Part shown: positions 6,327-28,294 of the stretch, piece by piece | Position numbering within the stretch: position 1 is the stretch's first letter | Layout: each line of letters opens with the position of its first letter | Assembly (NCBI GenBank): GCA_937138345.1 | Contig: CAKZOW010000158.1 | Location: 1 to 38,279 of the forward strand | Source: an uncultured archaeon | GTDB lineage: Archaea; Nanobdellota; Nanobdellia; Woesearchaeales; UBA583 | Reading direction: 5' to 3' | Length of the DNA: 38,279 bases | The notes under the pieces: model-generated | What the model saw: only the letters and a program-made list of their open reading frames with translations | Database searches by the model: none | Told to the model about the DNA's origin: nothing | Position numbers and translations under genes: made by a program

Positions 6327-6632
6327 TTATTTTCTTTTTTTAGGAGTTACTCCTTCTTCTAAATCTTTGATAATTCTTTCTTCATCAAGTAATGTTTGTC
6401 TCACCATTTTTTGAATATTTTGATCAATACTCTCGATGTGTTTTTGTGATTTATTTACAACACTTAACATGTATAAAATTACAAGCATAATTGCAAGAAC
6501 TGTCCAAAACATTACCTTTACTAAAAAATCAGCATTTTCCATACTTAGTAATACAATTGAGACTATATATAAGTATGCTGTTATCAAGAAGTAAAAAATA
6601 GTTGAATCTAAACGACCCACGGAGGGATTCAT
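6327..6632 (-). CDS. Small two-helix membrane protein
   Basis: 101 residues from the ATG at 6632: two transmembrane helices (about residues 12-31 and 38-58), then a charged coiled tail ending in PKKRK. The open frame begins at a GTG at 6641, but that GTG is part of the repeated GTGTCTGG motif, so the ATG is preferred. The first nine or so codons lie in a displaced copy of the tRNA-Arg 3' end, so the present N-terminus was probably created by that event. Function unknown. Confidence 0.5.
   Translation of the reverse strand: MNPSVGRLDSTIFYFLITAYLYIVSIVLLSMENADFLVKVMFWTVLAIMLVILYMLSVVNKSQKHIESIDQNIQKMVRQTLLDEERIIKDLEEGVTPKKRK
6607..6630 (-). repeat. Displaced copy of the tRNA-Arg 3' end
   Basis: TCTAAACGACCC at 6607-6618 is identical to 6701-6712, which covers the last bases of the tRNA plus six bases beyond it. 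GGGATTC at 6624-6630 matches the T-arm at 6717-6723 with nearly the same spacing. In the tRNA reading direction the copy follows GTGTCTGG directly, as at the GTPase and thermosome loci. Confidence 0.7.
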
Positions 6633-6633
6633 G

Positions 6634-6664
6634 CCAGACACTACACTCTGTTTCGTTCTTGCAC
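6634..6664 (-). repeat. Shared insertion motif, copy A
   Basis: Read on the minus strand, the segment opens with TGCAAGAACGAAA and closes with GTGTCTGG. The same two blocks occur at 20119-20150 and, more diverged, at 22423-22451 and 6817-6841. Each sits immediately before a displaced gene end. A small GAAC/GTTC hairpin lies just upstream on the same strand. Confidence 0.6.
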
Positions 6665-6706
6665 AAATAAATTTGAACTAAAGTTCTCATCCCTTAGGAT
6701 TCTAAA

Positions 6707-6781
6707 CGACCCCTGCGGGATTCGAACCCGCGATTTACAGCTTAGGAGGCTATCGTCATATCCAGACTAGACCAAGGGGTC
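6707..6781 (-). tRNA. tRNA-Arg (anticodon CCU)
   Basis: A complete cloverleaf on the minus strand: a 7-bp acceptor stem (GACCCCT with AGGGGTC), a D-arm with the GG pair, a 5-bp anticodon stem with loop CTCCTAA (anticodon CCT, reading AGG), and a T-arm GCGGG TTCGAAT CCCGC. The discriminator is G, CCA is not encoded, and there is no intron. Both flanks carry partial copies of the tRNA ends next to GTGTCTGG motifs. Confidence 0.95.
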
Positions 6782-6969
6782 GTGAGGTTATTATCACAGT
6801 GCTTCAAAGAAGCACGCACAAGAGAGCTTGCGAGTGTCTGGTGTATCCAAGCTATGCTCAACAATGCTTACACATTCTTGGCATCTTGCTCGTTACCTCG
6901 CAAGAGACCAAGGAGTCAGTATAATTATAGTTGAATTAATTTCGTATTAAAAAGATTTGTCTTTATTTT
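6782..6969. other. Structured intergenic region upstream of tRNA-Arg
   Basis: No convincing gene. The stretch is dense in hairpins, including a perfect GTGCTTC-AAA-GAAGCAC stem at 6799-6815 and a TCTTGC/GCAAGA stem near 6880-6905. It contains CACAAGAG...GTGTCTGG on the plus strand (6817-6841), followed by a sequence resembling the antisense tRNA. At 6905-6917, AGACCAAGGAGTC matches the tRNA 5' end (6769-6781) at 12 of 13 bases. It looks like the remains of one or more insertions around the tRNA. A short frame crosses it but has no recognisable product. Confidence 0.5.
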
Positions 6970-15570: not shown

Positions 15571-15644
15571 AAATACTCAAAACTCAAAAGAGTTTTGATT
15601 TAGTTATTGTGATAGAGTTCAAGTAATCAATTATATTTAGCTAC
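15571..15644 (-). repeat. Displaced 3' end of the enolase gene
   Basis: 74 bases match 15750-15823 with seven mismatches, all inside the last 15 codons. The stop codon and the hairpin after it are identical. The copy reads VAKYN-stop-LLELYHNN-stop. Changes from the gene are TAC to TAT, AGG to TGA, TTA to CTT and TTA to CTC: all silent except the nonsense change. This is the pattern of a formerly functional gene end. Confidence 0.88.
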
Positions 15645-15755
15645 GATCTTTTTCTTTACCGTTTACTTCGCTAAAGCTCAGGGCACTAAGAAAAAGTAAG
15701 TTCACTTACGTTCTCTTAAACTCAACAAGTTGAGATTTCTCACCAAAAGAAATAC

Positions 15756-15778: not shown

Positions 15779-17068
15779 TTAGTTATTGTGATATAATTCT
15801 AATAACCTATTGTATTTAGCTACTCTCTCTCCTCTTGCTGGAGCTCCTAGTTTTATTGAACTCTCGAGTGCATATGCAAGGTCTGCGATGAAATCATCTG
15901 GAGTTTCTCCTGATCTATGAGATACAATTGTGTGCCATCCTGAAGACTCTGCTAATTTGTGTGCTTGGATTGCTTCTGTTAGTGTACCAATTTGATTAAT
16001 TTTTAACAATAATGAATTGCATAACTTTTCTTTTTGTGCTTCTAAAATTCTTTTAGGATTAGTTACTAATAAATCATCTCCTACAACTAATACTTTTTTT
16101 TTATTCGAGAAGATATTTTTTTCTTTTGGTTCTAATGAATTTGCCATGAAGTACATAAACCCTTCAAAATCATCTTCAGCCATTGGATCTTCAATACTAA
16201 TTAGAGGATATTCTTTTAGTAATTCATTATAGTACTGCGTTAATTCTTTATAGTCTAGATGTAAATCTTTTTCAATTTGATATTTTTTTGTCTCAGTATT
16301 ATAAAAATCACTTGCTGCAGCATCTAAAGCAAATCCTATTTCTTCAGAATATCCGCATTGTTTTGTTGCTTCAACTAATAAGTCTAGAGCTTCTTTTGAT
16401 TTTGAGAGTGCTGGTGCAAACCCTCCTTCATCACCAATTGCAGTTGATTCTTTTCCATATTGTTTTTCAATTAATGATTTTAATGTATGGTAAATTTCAC
16501 TCACAACTCTCGTTTTGTATGTAAAATCTCCTTTTAGAGGAATGATCATAAATTCTTGAACTTGAAGGTCATTTCCTGCATGAAGACCACCATTAATTAC
16601 ATTTGCAAATGGAGTCACTTGAGGTTTTACTTGTCTTTTCTTATTAGAGTAAGAAATTGAGTGTTTCATACGATAGAGATATTCATGTAGAGGTAAGTTG
16701 TAAAACTTAGCTGAAGCTCTTGCAAATGCACAACTCAAACCAAGAATAGCATTAGCTCCTAAAATTTCTTTATTTTCTGTAGCATCTAACTCAATTAGTG
16801 CTTTATCAAAACTTTCTTGAGTAAATTCTCTAAAATAGAGCTTTTCTGAGATTGATAGAATGTTTTGAACAGCTTTTTGAACACCCTTACCATGATATCT
16901 TTGTTTGTCATTATCTCTTAACTCATGAGCTTCATGAATTCCAGTAGAAGCACCTGAAGGTACCATAAATGTTCCTTTTGACCCATCTTGAAGAACTACT
17001 GTTGCTTTTAGAGTTGGATTTCCTCTTGAATCTAAAATTTCAATTGCATCAATTGATATAATTTCCAT
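15779..17068 (-). CDS. eno: Enolase
   Basis: 429 residues, full length. It converts 2-phosphoglycerate to phosphoenolpyruvate in glycolysis and gluconeogenesis. Visible signatures: the N-terminal DSRGNPTLKATV, the flexible loop VPSGASTGIHEA, the metal-ligand regions GFALDAAASDFY, SIEDPMAEDD and VVGDDLLVTN, the lysine segment LLLKINQIGTLTEA, the SHRSGETPD loop, and the C-terminal KLGAPARGERVAKYNRLL. A TATA box lies about 25 nt upstream of the ATG. A diverged copy of its last 15 codons lies 179 bases further downstream. Confidence 0.96.
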   Translation of the reverse strand: MEIISIDAIEILDSRGNPTLKATVVLQDGSKGTFMVPSGASTGIHEAHELRDNDKQRYHGKGVQKAVQNILSISEKLYFREFTQESFDKALIELDATENKEILGANAILGLSCAFARASAKFYNLPLHEYLYRMKHSISYSNKKRQVKPQVTPFANVINGGLHAGNDLQVQEFMIIPLKGDFTYKTRVVSEIYHTLKSLIEKQYGKESTAIGDEGGFAPALSKSKEALDLLVEATKQCGYSEEIGFALDAAASDFYNTETKKYQIEKDLHLDYKELTQYYNELLKEYPLISIEDPMAEDDFEGFMYFMANSLEPKEKNIFSNKKKVLVVGDDLLVTNPKRILEAQKEKLCNSLLLKINQIGTLTEAIQAHKLAESSGWHTIVSHRSGETPDDFIADLAYALESSIKLGAPARGERVAKYNRLLELYHNN

Positions 17069-18356: not shown

Positions 18357-19553
18357 ATGATTATTGGACTAGTTGGAAAACCAAATGTTGGAAAGTCAGC
18401 ATTTTTTAGAGCACTTACATTAGCTGCAGCAGAATCAGGAAATTTTCCTTTTACTACAATTGATGCTAATTCTGCTATTGGATATGTTAAAATTAAGGAC
18501 CCTGCTCAACATTTTGATAAAAGCTCAAATCCTAGAGAAGGATATGTGTTAGGAGAATATAGATTTGTACCTACAGAAGTAATTGATGTTGCAGGACTTG
18601 TTCCTGGAGCTTCAGAGGGTAAAGGTCTTGGAAATCAATTTTTAAATGATTTATCTCAAGCTGATGCATTGATCCATGTTATTGATTTGTCTGGATCAAC
18701 TAATGAGAAAGGAGAGCCTGTTGATTTAAATTCATATGATCCTGCAGAGGATATTAAGTTCTTAGAAGTAGAGTTAAATCAATGGTATCTCAATATTATT
18801 GAGAAACATTGGGCAAATATTGATAAAAAAATTAGAATGCAAGATATGAAAATTGAAGATGCTCTAATTACCGTTTTATCAGGTTTAAATATTAAAGAGA
18901 GACATATTTTTCAAGCAATTTCTGAGTTAAAATTAGATAAGACAAATATTTCTGATAATTTAAAAGAACTCGCTTCAAAGCTTAGAGAAATTTCTAAACC
19001 AATGGTAATTGCAGCAAACAAATGTGATGCTATTTTAGATAATAACTTATGGGAAGAAAAATTAAATGCATTAAAAGAACAATTTCCTGGATATATTATC
19101 ATGCCAGTAATTGCTGAATATGAATATAATTTGAAAAAAGCTGCTGAAGCAGAAATTATTTCTTACATTCCAGGAGAGAAGAGTTTTGATATTAAAGATG
19201 AGTCTAAATTAAATGAAGCACAAATTAATGGACTCAATAAAATTAAAGATACTATTTCCTTAATGCCAAATGGAACTGGAGTTCAAGATTGTATTAACTC
19301 AGCAATGTTTGACTTACTTAAAATGATTGCAATTTGTCCAGGAGGAGTTAAACTTGAAGATAAAAATGGAAATACTCTCCCTGATTGTTTTTTAATGCCA
19401 AATGGAACTACTGCACTAGATTTTGCATTTAGATTACATACTGATTTTGGTAAAAACTTTGTAAAAGCAATTGATATTAAAACAGGAAGAATGGTTGGAA
19501 AAGATCATCCCGTAAACATGGGAGATATTATCGAAATCAAGGCAGGGAAGTAA
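18357..19553 (+). CDS. OLA1/YchF-type translation-associated GTPase
   Basis: 398 residues. The Obg-class G domain has G1 GKPNVGKS (7-14), G3 DVAG (77-80) and G4 NKCD (221-224). A helical insert separates it from the C-terminal TGS domain (about 320-398, ALDFAFRLHTDFGKNFVKA). Archaeal members bind ribosomes, though their exact step is not settled. The gene has its own TATA box 30 nt upstream. Its last codons (...DIIEIKAGK, stop) recur twice downstream, at 20059 and 20150, with silent changes. Confidence 0.92.
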   Translation: MIIGLVGKPNVGKSAFFRALTLAAAESGNFPFTTIDANSAIGYVKIKDPAQHFDKSSNPREGYVLGEYRFVPTEVIDVAGLVPGASEGKGLGNQFLNDLSQADALIHVIDLSGSTNEKGEPVDLNSYDPAEDIKFLEVELNQWYLNIIEKHWANIDKKIRMQDMKIEDALITVLSGLNIKERHIFQAISELKLDKTNISDNLKELASKLREISKPMVIAANKCDAILDNNLWEEKLNALKEQFPGYIIMPVIAEYEYNLKKAAEAEIISYIPGEKSFDIKDESKLNEAQINGLNKIKDTISLMPNGTGVQDCINSAMFDLLKMIAICPGGVKLEDKNGNTLPDCFLMPNGTTALDFAFRLHTDFGKNFVKAIDIKTGRMVGKDHPVNMGDIIEIKAGK

Positions 19554-19598
19554 TTATTTCAATTCAAGAAAAACTTTGTTACTACTAAAAAGAGTAAC

Positions 19599-19607
19599 TT
19601 TATAAAA
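19599..19607 (+). promoter_or_regulatory. TATA box of the 111-residue gene
   Basis: TTTATAAAA lies 29 nt before the ATG at 19628. A GTTACT/AGTAAC hairpin (19577-19597) precedes it and may end the GTPase transcript. Confidence 0.55.
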
Positions 19608-19627
19608 TTTATTATATATATTTAAAT

Positions 19628-19963
19628 ATGTTAGATATAAATGAAATAAATAATGGGTCATTATATATTTGGAGAGAAAAACATACCAAATACAATTTTT
19701 TAGGAAATACTCATTCCTATTCTTTCCATTATGTTGCTAAAGAACTAGATGGTGAGATGGTAAGTCAAGGATCCTTTGGTTCTGGGATGAGTGCTCAAGA
19801 AATACTTGGAAAAAGTTTAAATCTAGTAAAAGAATTTAACATTACAGAGTTAGTAAATGGGATTCCAGTTATATCAAATACTGCTGTGGATTCAGATTTT
19901 TTAGATCCTGTAGTAAAAGTAGAAGGAGAACTTGAAAGTGCTATCAGGCAAGCATTAAATTAG
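19628..19963 (+). CDS. Unknown 111-residue protein between the live and displaced GTPase ends
   Basis: No family recognised. The protein is soluble, with no signal or membrane helix. An aromatic-rich first half (LYIWREKHTKYNFLGNTHSYSFHYV) precedes GSFGSGMSAQEILGKSL and an acidic C-terminal helix. It has its own TATA box, and a 14-nt palindrome spans its stop (19957-19970). Its position is notable: it sits between the current GTPase stop and the displaced GTPase end at 20059, where cargo of an inserted element would be expected. Confidence 0.55.
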   Translation: MLDINEINNGSLYIWREKHTKYNFLGNTHSYSFHYVAKELDGEMVSQGSFGSGMSAQEILGKSLNLVKEFNITELVNGIPVISNTAVDSDFLDPVVKVEGELESAIRQALN

Positions 19964-19970
19964 TTAATTT
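19957..19970 (+). terminator. Palindrome across the stop of the 111-residue gene
   Basis: AAATTA-GT-TAATTT is perfect and contains the TAG stop. It is short, so its stability is low. Confidence 0.35.
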
Positions 19971-20058
19971 TGAAAACATCTTCTTGAGAATCCTTGATTC
20001 GAAAAGGATAGTTTTTACGGAGTGTTTTTTAGCGAAGCGTCTAAAAAAGTTCTGGAGG

Positions 20059-20088
20059 GATATTATCGAAATCAAGGCAGGTAAATAA
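20059..20088 (+). repeat. Displaced GTPase 3' end, copy 1
   Basis: The 30 bases encode DIIEIKAGK and stop, identical in protein to the GTPase end. Two silent changes: GGG to GGT and AAG to AAA. AAAAAAGTTCTGG, a variant of the AAGTGTCTGG motif, lies just before it. A CAGGT/ACCTG hairpin spans its stop. Confidence 0.85.
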
Positions 20089-20118
20089 ACCTGACTTTAT
20101 TGTAAACATCATTTATGG

Positions 20119-20150
20119 TGTGCAAGAACGAATGAAATAAGTGTCTGGCA
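20119..20150 (+). repeat. Shared insertion motif, copy B
   Basis: GTGCAAGAACGAA and, ten bases on, GTGTCTGGCAT match the minus-strand segment beside tRNA-Arg (6634-6664) over both blocks. It separates displaced GTPase ends 1 and 2. Confidence 0.7.
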
Positions 20151-20167
20151 TTAAAGCTGGAAAGTAA
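20150..20167 (+). repeat. Displaced GTPase 3' end, copy 2
   Basis: The 18 bases encode IKAGK and stop with silent changes from the gene: ATC to ATT, AAG to AAA, GCA to GCT, GGG to GGA. They sit directly after GTGTCTGGC. A perfect 9-bp stem (ATTAAAGCT with AGCTTTAAT) folds around the stop. Similarity to copy 1 continues about 25 bases past the stop (TTGTAAAYATC). Confidence 0.82.
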
Positions 20168-20192
20168 TAGAAGCTTTAATTGTAAATATCTT

Positions 20193-20708: not shown

Positions 20709-22292
20709 ATGAAAAAACAAGATATACTTCAAGAAGATACGCAAAGAACTAAAGGACTTGATGCACGAGAGTCAAACATTCAAGCTGCAATTGCACTATC
20801 TGAACTTTTAAAAACAACACTGGGACCACAAGGACTTGATAAAATGCTAATTGATTCTATGGGAGAGAGTATTGTTACAAATGATGGTGTTAAAATTCTC
20901 AAAGAAATGGAAATTGAACATCCTGGTGCAAAAATTTTAGTTGATGTTGCAAAAACTCAAGAATCTCAAGTTGGAGATGGTACAACTTCTGCAGTTTTGA
21001 TTTCCGGAGAATTGTTAAAAAATGCAAAAGGATTACTAGCACAAAATATCCATCCAAATTTAATTGTTAAAGGTTTTAAAGAAACTTCTAAAGAAATTTT
21101 GAAACTTTTACATAGTTCTTCAACTGAAGTCAAAAAAGATTCTAAAAAATTAATTGAAGATATTGCAAAAACAGCAATGACTGGAAAAATTGCTGAGCTT
21201 GATATGGAACAGTTAAGTAGTATATTATTTGAGATTACACAAGAATTAAGAGATAAAGACACACTACATTTCAATAAATTAAAAGTACAAAAAATACCTG
21301 GTAGTTTAGAAGATAGTGAAATTATCAACGGAGTTGTTTTAGATAAAAATCCTGCACATCCAAATATGACAAAACATCTTAAAAATCCAAAAGTTTTACT
21401 TGTTGATTTTGCACTTGAAATACAAGAGCTTGAATCTGATGCAAAAGTAAATATTAATTCATTAGAAGAATATGAACAATTTATTGAATCTGAGAAAAAT
21501 TATCTTAAAAATTTGGTGTATAAAATTAAACAAACTGGCGTTAATTTTATTGCATGCCAAAAAGGAATTGATGACTCTGTTGCATATTATCTTGCAAAAG
21601 AAGGTATTTTAGCTACAAGAAGAACTCGAAAATCAGATCTTGAGAAATTATCTCTTGCACTTAATTGTCCAATTGTTTCATCTTATGAAGATGTTTCAAA
21701 GGAAAATCTAGGTACATGCTCTGATGTAACTGTTAAAGAGATTGAAAATGAACTCTATGTGTTTGTTGAGGGCGTTAAGAATTCTAAAGCATTAACACTT
21801 CTTCTTAAAGGATCTACAAAACATTTCAGAGATGAATTGGAGAGGGCAATTGATGATGCTCTAGGTGATATTGCATCCATATTAAAATCAAAGAGAATTG
21901 TTGCTGGAGGAGGAGCAATTGAGTGTGAACTTGAATTTCAATCACAAGAATACTTGAACTCTCTTGAGGGTAAATCTCACATTATTGCAAAATCATTTAT
22001 TGATGCTCTTTTAGTTATTCCAAAAACCCTATGTTTAAACTCAGGGTTTGATGAAATTGATATGTTATCCAAATTATCTAAAAATCATAGAGAAGGAAAT
22101 GCTCACTCAGGTATCAATGGATTTAAAGGAATTGTAAAAGATACTCTAAAAGAATCAATTATTGAACCAATAAATGTGAAAGAGCAGGCAATTAAATCTG
22201 CAACTGAAGCTACTTGTATGATTTTAAGAATTGATGATATCATTGCAGCTAGAAAGTTAGATAAAGTTCAAGACTTCTCTGGAGATTTTTAA
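20709..22292 (+). CDS. Thermosome subunit (group II chaperonin)
   Basis: 527 residues. It is an ATP-dependent folding chamber subunit. Nucleotide-site signatures: [10 protein letters not shown] (from 37), VTNDG (from 56), [16 protein letters not shown] (from 88) and [13 protein letters not shown] in the C-terminal equatorial half. The end is unusual: QDFSGDF, without the Gly/Met-rich tail common in archaeal thermosomes. Two further copies of this 3' end follow. It appears to be a single-gene unit with a TATA-like AT box about 35 nt upstream. Confidence 0.94.
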
Positions 22293-22359: not shown

Positions 22360-22404
22360 GATGCAGATTATCGCTGCGAGAAAGCTATACAAAGTTCAAG
22401 ATTT
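22360..22404 (+). repeat. Displaced thermosome 3' end, copy 1
   Basis: From 22367 it reads IIAARKLYKVQDL against the gene's [13 protein letters not shown]. Silent changes include ATC/ATT swaps, GCA to GCT, GCT to GCG, TTA to CTA and GAC to GAT; there are one or two replacements. The homology then breaks at the next inserted segment (22405-22451). Confidence 0.82.
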
Positions 22405-22451
22405 ATTTTTCAAAGAAAAATATACAAGAACAAATTTTAATTTGTGTCTGG
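22405..22451 (+). repeat. Inserted segment with shared motif, copy C
   Basis: A perfect ATTTTTC-AAA-GAAAAAT hairpin (22405-22421) is followed by ACAAGAACAAATT and GTGTCTGG (22444-22451). The order hairpin, CAAGAAC, GTGTCTGG matches the other loci. The hairpin shares the TTC-AAA-GAA core of the one at 6799-6815. Confidence 0.68.
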
Positions 22452-22455
22452 TATT

Positions 22456-22470
22456 TCAGGAGATTTCTAA
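22456..22470 (+). repeat. Displaced thermosome 3' end, copy 2
   Basis: Encodes SGDF and stop with TCT to TCA and TTT to TTC changes, both silent. It follows GTGTCTGGTATT. It is short, but its position and its fit to the rest of the locus make chance unlikely. Confidence 0.7.
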
Positions 22471-27559: not shown

Positions 27560-28231
27560 ATGACAAACAAAGTAGCATTAATGGAATTTGAAGGAAATGC
27601 AAATATTGGACTCTTTTTTTTTGTAAATGATAAGTTTGCAATTTTAGGTAAACAAGTTGATGAAAAAAAGAAAAAAGAAATTGAAAATGTTTTAGATGTT
27701 CCTGTATATACTCTTCAAGTATTGAGTACAGACTTAATTGGAGTTTTTTTGAGTGGAAATAATGATATATTACTATCTCCACAACTCTATGAACATGAAT
27801 TAAAACAATTAGAAGAAATTTGTTCAAAACACGATATGAAATTAATTCAAATTGAAGATAAATTGAATACTTTAGGAAATAATATTTGTGTAGGGGATGA
27901 AGAGATTCTAATTAATAGTAATTACTCTCGTCAATTTAAAGATCATATTAAAAAAGCAACTAACCTTAAGGTTATTGAATTAAACCACTCTGAATTTTCT
28001 TCAGCAGGTGCTGTATGTACTTTTGTTAAAGGAAAATATTATGTATCACAAGAACTCAATGAGGAGATGGTTAAAGATTTTATTGATAAAATTGCAGGAG
28101 TAGGTTCTATTAACTCCGGTTCACCTTTTGTTGCATCAGGTATTGTTGCAAATAACAATGGAATTTTAATTGGATCATTATCGTCAACAGTTGAAATCCA
28201 AGAAGTGGTAGAAAATTTAGATTATTTATAA
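27560..28231 (+). CDS. Translation initiation factor 6 (aIF6)
   Basis: 223 residues, the usual length for the five-fold pentein. It binds the 50S subunit and prevents premature joining to 30S. Family stretches: FEGNANIGLFFFVNDKFAI near the start, then GNNDILLSP, LNTLGNNICVGDEE and NNNGILIGS. The frame starts at an ATG 29 nt from its TATA box. The final 27 bases, stop included, recur exactly at 28268-28294. Confidence 0.93.
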   Translation: MTNKVALMEFEGNANIGLFFFVNDKFAILGKQVDEKKKKEIENVLDVPVYTLQVLSTDLIGVFLSGNNDILLSPQLYEHELKQLEEICSKHDMKLIQIEDKLNTLGNNICVGDEEILINSNYSRQFKDHIKKATNLKVIELNHSEFSSAGAVCTFVKGKYYVSQELNEEMVKDFIDKIAGVGSINSGSPFVASGIVANNNGILIGSLSSTVEIQEVVENLDYL

Positions 28232-28236: not shown

Positions 28237-28267
28237 ATAGCGATCAAAAATTTTTAATTTTTGAATA

Positions 28268-28294
28268 TGGTAGAAAATTTAGATTATTTATAAA
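28268..28294 (+). repeat. Displaced aIF6 3' end
   Basis: 27 of 27 bases equal 28206-28232, running through the stop codon; beyond it the sequences diverge. The spacer holds a TCAAAAATT/AATTTTTGA hairpin nearly identical to the CAAAAATC/GATTTTTG spacer hairpin at the Ca2+ ATPase locus, with a paired C-G to T-A change. The exact match suggests a recent event. Confidence 0.88.

Follow-up and report, generated by a model that had tools for sequence, protein, structure and literature searches.

A few elements that bear an integrase or a nuclease are already known to insert into protein genes and restore the gene end. In E. coli, prophage e14 and phage 21 insert inside the 3′ end of the protein gene icd and displace the old end (PMC6379469, PMC11148124), with the 165-bp displaced end of e14/icd differing by 12 nt and two conservative replacements (PMC11148124, PMC6379469). 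In genomic islands located in tRNA genes (Islander), the regenerated target and the displaced fragment mark the ends of the island (PMC4383910). Mobile ORFs of fungal mitochondria (in Allomyces atp6 and in Glomus atp6, atp9, cox2 and nad3) carry a foreign carboxy-terminal end, the native end being displaced, and the two ends diverge more in DNA than in protein (PMC3630166).

The archaeal loci described here resemble e14/icd in that an equivalent end is supplied, mostly with silent changes, and the old end is displaced. Prophage e14 encodes its own integrase. It is, however, a prophage with one site, whereas the archaeal elements are mostly under 150 nt, non-coding and found at dozens of genes. 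The regenerated target end and the displaced fragment typical of islands are present in the archaeal elements, and tRNA targets occur in both, but islands use tyrosine integrases, whereas the archaeal elements are gene-free and frequent at protein genes. Likewise, the archaeal loci have a diverged but equivalent end at the gene and a second end downstream, as fungal mobile ORFs do, although the latter encode LAGLIDADG or GIY-YIG endonucleases, while the sole ORF found here in an insert, namely in insert 1 of the YchF locus, has no known domain. No integrase is contained within the inserts, which at ~30–280 nt are too short for one, with the YchF insert holding a 111-aa orphan only, and no homing endonuclease was found in them either, the genome search having been made for LAGLIDADG_3. 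Having neither integrase nor endonuclease, the elements are not members of the e14, tRNA-island or mobile ORF groups, although by analogy they appear to work like them.

Rickettsia palindromic elements, MITEs, REP and RU sequences are also small, structured, non-coding, multi-copy and tolerated in or beside genes. Rickettsia palindromic elements are located in frame inside genes. Descriptions of these and other miniature palindromic repeats do not, to our knowledge, mention recoded ends or long repeats that duplicate a gene end, and it is on this description that the archaeal elements are set apart from the Rickettsia ones.

The YchF locus

The window, i.e. the whole stretch of 38,279 nt analysed, is contig C158 of genome G000, a draft assembly of 1.80 Mb in 162 contigs (95% complete), about half of which was read. 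All the genomes compared are draft assemblies, and ORFs were called mechanically. The gene coding for a YchF/Obg-like GTPase with YGR210-like_G4 and TGS domains (Pfam) occupies positions 18357–19553 on the forward strand, and its live end, DIIEIKAGK-stop, lies at 19524–19553. The initial annotation described this 3′ end as present in three versions in a row with silent differences only, and both the coordinates and the changes were confirmed exactly.

Copy 1 (20059–20088) matches the live end in 28 of 30 nt, 23 nt of them exact, the changes being GGG/GGT and AAG/AAA. The exact 23-mer has two occurrences in the whole genome and none in 39 relatives. The match, scored as 25/27 nt, is far beyond chance, as permuted pairs of gene ends and downstream regions from the same genome never exceeded 20/27. 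Copy 2 (20150–20167) differs from the live end by four changes (ATC/ATT, AAG/AAA, GCA/GCT and GGG/GGA), all four silent, and its match of 14/18 nt is weak if taken alone. Further support comes from a type B element (AAGAAC..GTGTCT, 20124–20146) directly before it, whose 3′ edge lies three bases 5′ of the copy, from its own 9-bp stop-spanning palindrome ATTAAAGCT..AGCTTTAAT (20150–20180), and from the same three-in-a-row layout in the YchF orthologue of genome G004 (locus L004), where three ends reading IIEIRSGK, IIEIRSGK and IIEIRAGK, each followed by a stop, lie ~69 nt apart.

Insert 1, located between the live end and copy 1 (19554–20058), is the longest among the inserts found and contains the orphan ORF of 111 aa (19628–19963), for which there was no Pfam match and no relative in 12 related genomes. 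This ORF was considered as a transposase and rejected, being single-copy and without a family. At 20012–20054, almost flush with copy 1, there is a degenerate type A element: the type A model R1, built without the YchF locus, matches it weakly (19.2 bits, E 0.06), and the match stops four bases 5′ of copy 1. As a degenerate type A element precedes copy 1 and a type B element precedes copy 2, the locus is best read as two serial insertions.

Relatives of the YchF protein that carry a name come from bins of Candidatus Woesearchaeota and Nanoarchaeia. One bin, G005, contains two YchF-like genes (contigs C12 and C29) with 70% and 65% identity to that of the window, which represent either a paralogue or a mixed bin. 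At the first of them (L002, G005:C12), a copy of the gene's 5′ head precedes its start, with a hairpin element inside, a mirror image of the 3′ case.

Other displaced ends in the window

The enolase gene (15779–17068, reverse strand; live end 15779–15823) has a displaced end at 15600–15644 with silent changes and one in-frame TGA, and a type A element lies between the two at 15645–15751, on the same strand. The thermosome gene on the forward strand, with a live end at 22239–22292, is followed by a first piece of the displaced end (22367–22404), a type B element (22426–22449) and the last displaced codons, SGDF-stop (22454–22470). Downstream of the forward ORF at 27560–28231, a short type D element of the form GCGATC-hairpin-GAATA (28239–28267) is followed by a displaced end with 26 nt exact (28268–28293). 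On the reverse strand, the tRNA-Arg(cct) gene (6706–6782) has a type B element at its 3′ side (6636–6660) and a displaced, decayed 3′ part at 6604–6630.

Displaced ends across the genome

A search for displaced gene ends throughout the genome, proposed in the initial annotation, was run as a scan for exact matches of at least 13 nt of the last 75 nt of an ORF repeated within 600 nt downstream, with permuted ends and downstream regions as the control. In 841 kb of G000, displaced ends were found at 42 of the 744 ORFs compared to 3.8 expected by permutation. By a score computed on translated, stop-aligned ends, 10 ORFs exceeded the cut-off in 270 kb of G000 and eight in 404 kb of the sister genome G004 (0.4 by chance in each case), while a clear excess was absent from the samples of G002, G003 and other genera of the order. 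The genes hit are mostly core ones, including those for enolase, thermosome, YchF, IF-2, eRF1, SecY, MutL, pyruvate kinase and XerA. Direct repeats numbered 71 versus 6 in order-2 shuffles, half of the 71 being repeats inside proteins. A 203-nt exact internal repeat (L205, 6431 and 6707) was observed within a protein of ~1500 aa.

Families and structure of the elements

Between the live and the displaced end there is a small structured element, and covariation supports at least two families of such elements. Type A is ~65–75 nt long and has the form TTCTTTTGGTG..TTTTCTTAGYGAC..hairpin..CTAAGAAAAGATCGATG; ten aligned copies give 16 pairs, 10 of them with compensatory changes. Model R1, derived from these ten copies, finds 22 copies in G000 and one to four in each of five sister genomes, with none at E 0.01 in 34 genomes from as many other genera.

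Type B has the form NNC-A-AGA-AC-hairpin-GU-G-UCU-R-GNN. The pattern AAGAACN{4,16}GTGTCT has 21 matches in G000 and nine in G004 compared to one each for the reversed pattern, and in other genera it is at chance level. Among 31 aligned copies chosen by their core, in which AAGAAC/GTGTCT is invariant, the outer stem covaries, with AU replaced by GC in 11 and UA by CG in five, and is paired at 93.9% versus 19–58% when slid. The type B consensus appears to be genome-specific (GG/AG in G000 and mostly CG in G004). In L144, L148, L149, L152, L157 and L159, one type B element is nested in the loop of another, and a further arm, CTTTGAGA..GAACAAAG, recurs there. Inspection by eye also revealed a third kind of element, which is shorter and has the form GCGAYC-hairpin-GARTATG.

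A search of the window against Rfam 15 (E up to 1) gave no match to the elements, the sole matches, located elsewhere, being to tRNA and, weakly, to the S15 leader, and the exact patterns of types A and B had no match in IMG/VR. Stop-spanning hairpins such as that of copy 2 are enriched at genes with displaced ends (6/36 vs 4.2%). A role as the general terminator of G000 was rejected for this hairpin, as it is not general and is enriched only at displaced-end genes.

Layout and targets

The order at these loci is X-Y-Z′-stop-element-Y-Z, with the live gene located 5′ of the element and the right copy flush with the 3′ edge of the element. For old events, the boundaries hold to within a few bases. 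Of the two copies, the left one is the end in use and the right one is displaced. The elements are found mostly at gene 3′ ends in the sense orientation, tRNA genes included, a bias that was counted without a formal model of random placement. The direct repeats around them that bear the gene end measure about 12–150 nt. In type A, the direct repeat (21–149 nt) holds the stop of the sense gene in 19 of 30 loci, and several further loci have a sense ORF stop close by. Type B has the same layout, also at tRNA-Pro, tRNA-Arg, tRNA-Leu and tRNA-Trp, and is sometimes located antisense at gene starts (L153, L042, L160 and L161), where the start (ATGGCAAAA..) is duplicated upstream.

In the recent insertion at L205, ~108 nt are duplicated around an element of ~70 nt, and other long duplications reach 149 nt (L324) and 70 nt (L080). 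Two identical copies extending past the stop codon are seen in L205, L080 (15402−), L225, L158 and L004. The inserts are ~30–280 nt long, mostly under 150 nt, with insert 1 of YchF alone being longer. An autonomous long version of the elements was looked for and rejected, a displaced end more than 400 nt away being found in 841 kb only at YchF itself.

Certain genes are hit in more than one species: YchF in G000, G004 and G002, the DRG GTPase at the same codon in L155 (2235–3362) and L046 (14778–15902), SecY in L044 and, judging by its tail, L317, and Hef in L212 and, again by its tail, L322. The two ends within one genome are more alike than ends between genomes, and together with the shared target genes this implies that insertions recur at the same sites or that the sites are kept young. 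Insertion into DRG and YchF, which share the TGS end D-I-I/V-E-I, is at the same codons; the element may recognise this sequence. Self-BLAST among the contigs of the same assembly, of which part was read, revealed no allelic empty sites.

Divergence between live and displaced ends

In events with an exact block of at least 15 nt, the changed codons were 57 synonymous and 36 non-synonymous, with ~16% synonymous at random (P 3e-22). In a cleaner test, with loci chosen by their element and not by their tail, 27 synonymous and 12 non-synonymous changes were found versus 8.2 and 35.9 expected (P 7e-12). A hand-picked list gave 106 synonymous and five non-synonymous changes and is biased by the picking. 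As the differences are mostly synonymous, the two ends were both protein-coding for most of the time over which they diverged and were under purifying selection. Some displaced ends decayed later, namely those of enolase (TGA), L066, the second copy in L155 and tRNA-Arg. The earlier claim that selection on protein left silent drift only is consequently retained as a strong tendency, given the synonymous excess, and abandoned as a rule.

In the older cases, block Y is exact over ~10–50 nt and the remainder up to the stop is recoded. On a hand-made list, the switch from the identical to the recoded block is abrupt (combined P 8e-6).

Search for an enzyme

Y1 transposase (PF01797) is absent from all six genomes of the genus, and neither TnpB (PF07282) nor the reverse transcriptase (PF00078) of a DGR, retron or group II intron was found in the 95% complete draft of G000. 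LAGLIDADG_3 occurs in the genus only in G000 and G002 and is absent from four of the six carrier genomes. Tyrosine recombinases are present everywhere. In L103 (G004:C35), the C-terminal part of a Cas12a-like nuclease is encoded beside a BRO-like gene and Cas4, this gene fragment being found only in G004. A phage-like contig with stand-alone LAGLIDADG ORFs (L239, G000:C74) is binned with G000. These ORFs were rejected as a mobiliser, the contig being phage-like with no flanking gene-end duplication evident.

Discussion

The reading we prefer, with a probability of about 0.5, is that the YchF locus results from two serial insertions of miniature structured non-coding elements from families found throughout the genus, which are probably mobile and would have been imported together with the gene end by recombination. 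The element would travel joined to the end of the gene, for example as a small circle, and, by way of the identical block Y, recombine with that gene in a different strain. The end brought in would then become live and the resident one be shifted downstream, in the manner of prophage e14 in icd and of the fungal mitochondrial mobile ORFs, while two identical copies would be obtained if donor and recipient were the same strain. A join of resident and incoming DNA would leave the abrupt transition between identical and recoded sequence that is observed. Several observations count against import. Neither a circle nor an empty site nor a donor allele was encountered. At enolase, a diverged patch is located between two identical blocks; no enzyme common to the carriers emerged from the TnpB, Y1, reverse transcriptase and LAGLIDADG searches; and the genome-specific type B consensus suggests spread within a genome over gene-bound lineages.

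The account given in the initial annotation, of serial insertions at the end of the gene with an equivalent working end supplied and the old end displaced, agrees with the genome-wide excess, the purifying selection and the conserved elements before displaced ends. It further supposed that each insertion had brought a diverged end, a part that does not extend to L205, L080 (15402−), L225, L158 and L004 with their copies identical past the stop, and the agent turned out to be a miniature non-coding element instead of the usual integrase-bearing island. For the identical copies in L205, L080 and L225, a long target-site duplication is an equally good explanation.

Such a duplication is central to a possible, though less probable, alternative, according to which the element inserts within the genome with a target-site duplication of 12–150 nt and is often removed precisely by DNA recombination or RNA splicing. 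Both ends would then be in use, so selection on protein would act on both and the drift would be silent only. The recent long duplications, identical or nearly so (~108 nt in L205, 149 nt in L324 and 70 nt in L080), agree with this, as do the nesting and genome specificity of the elements and the block Y that stays exact beside the element while the remainder drifts. On the other hand, stops or amino-acid changes are found in some displaced ends (enolase, L066 and the second copy in L155), the displaced end of tRNA-Arg has decayed, and no excised allele was seen.

It is rather improbable that the elements are functional host signals, of the 3′ UTR or of processing, that are not mobile and were duplicated along with the gene ends. 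Their 3′ position, sense orientation and the stop-spanning hairpins enriched at these ends (6/36 vs 4.2%) would fit host signals. The elements occur, however, at no more than a few per cent of genes, some of them antisense at gene starts or nested in each other, and the duplication of the end would be left unexplained.

We consider very unlikely an RNA-guided homing system, a natural cleave-and-rescue drive, in which the element would be the scaffold and the displaced end, i.e. the old end of the gene, the guide aimed at alleles without the insertion, while the live end, silently recoded, would escape and the host gene survive. A covarying scaffold flush with the old end, silent recoding between the two ends, core, essential targets and a purine-rich flank upstream of the target, noted by eye, would all fit such a drive. 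The 10–20 nt beside the scaffold, where the seed is expected, are nevertheless identical in the live and displaced copies, silent recoding is impossible for tRNA targets, and no effector common to the carriers was found, with TnpB absent from G000 and the Cas12a-like gene found only in G004. Complementarity between an element and its own target is in slight excess (18.1 vs 16.6 in permuted pairs). As this excess over permutation is modest, the model in which every element contains a guide complementary to its target was rejected.

Slippage giving a plain tandem duplication that then drifted neutrally, or an assembly artefact of metagenome bins, is the least credible origin: tandem repeats are a common artefact of draft assemblies such as these, but a conserved covarying element stands at the junctions in six separate genomes, synonymous changes are in excess, and direct repeats number 71 versus 6 in the shuffles, even with half of the 71 within proteins.

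Taken as end replacement by mobile elements, the loci suggest mobile DNA of an unusual kind, one by which the genes of the host are spared. What would be new is end replacement as a genome-wide habit of miniature non-coding elements at core-gene ends in an uncultured archaeal genus. The C-termini and tRNA 3′ ends of such genomes may accordingly be recent replacements, and caution is needed in reading them. The loci would also provide dozens of natural replicates of the harmless replacement of the end of an essential gene by a mobile element, and they allow one to ask whether a gene keeps two synonymous forms of its end in use.
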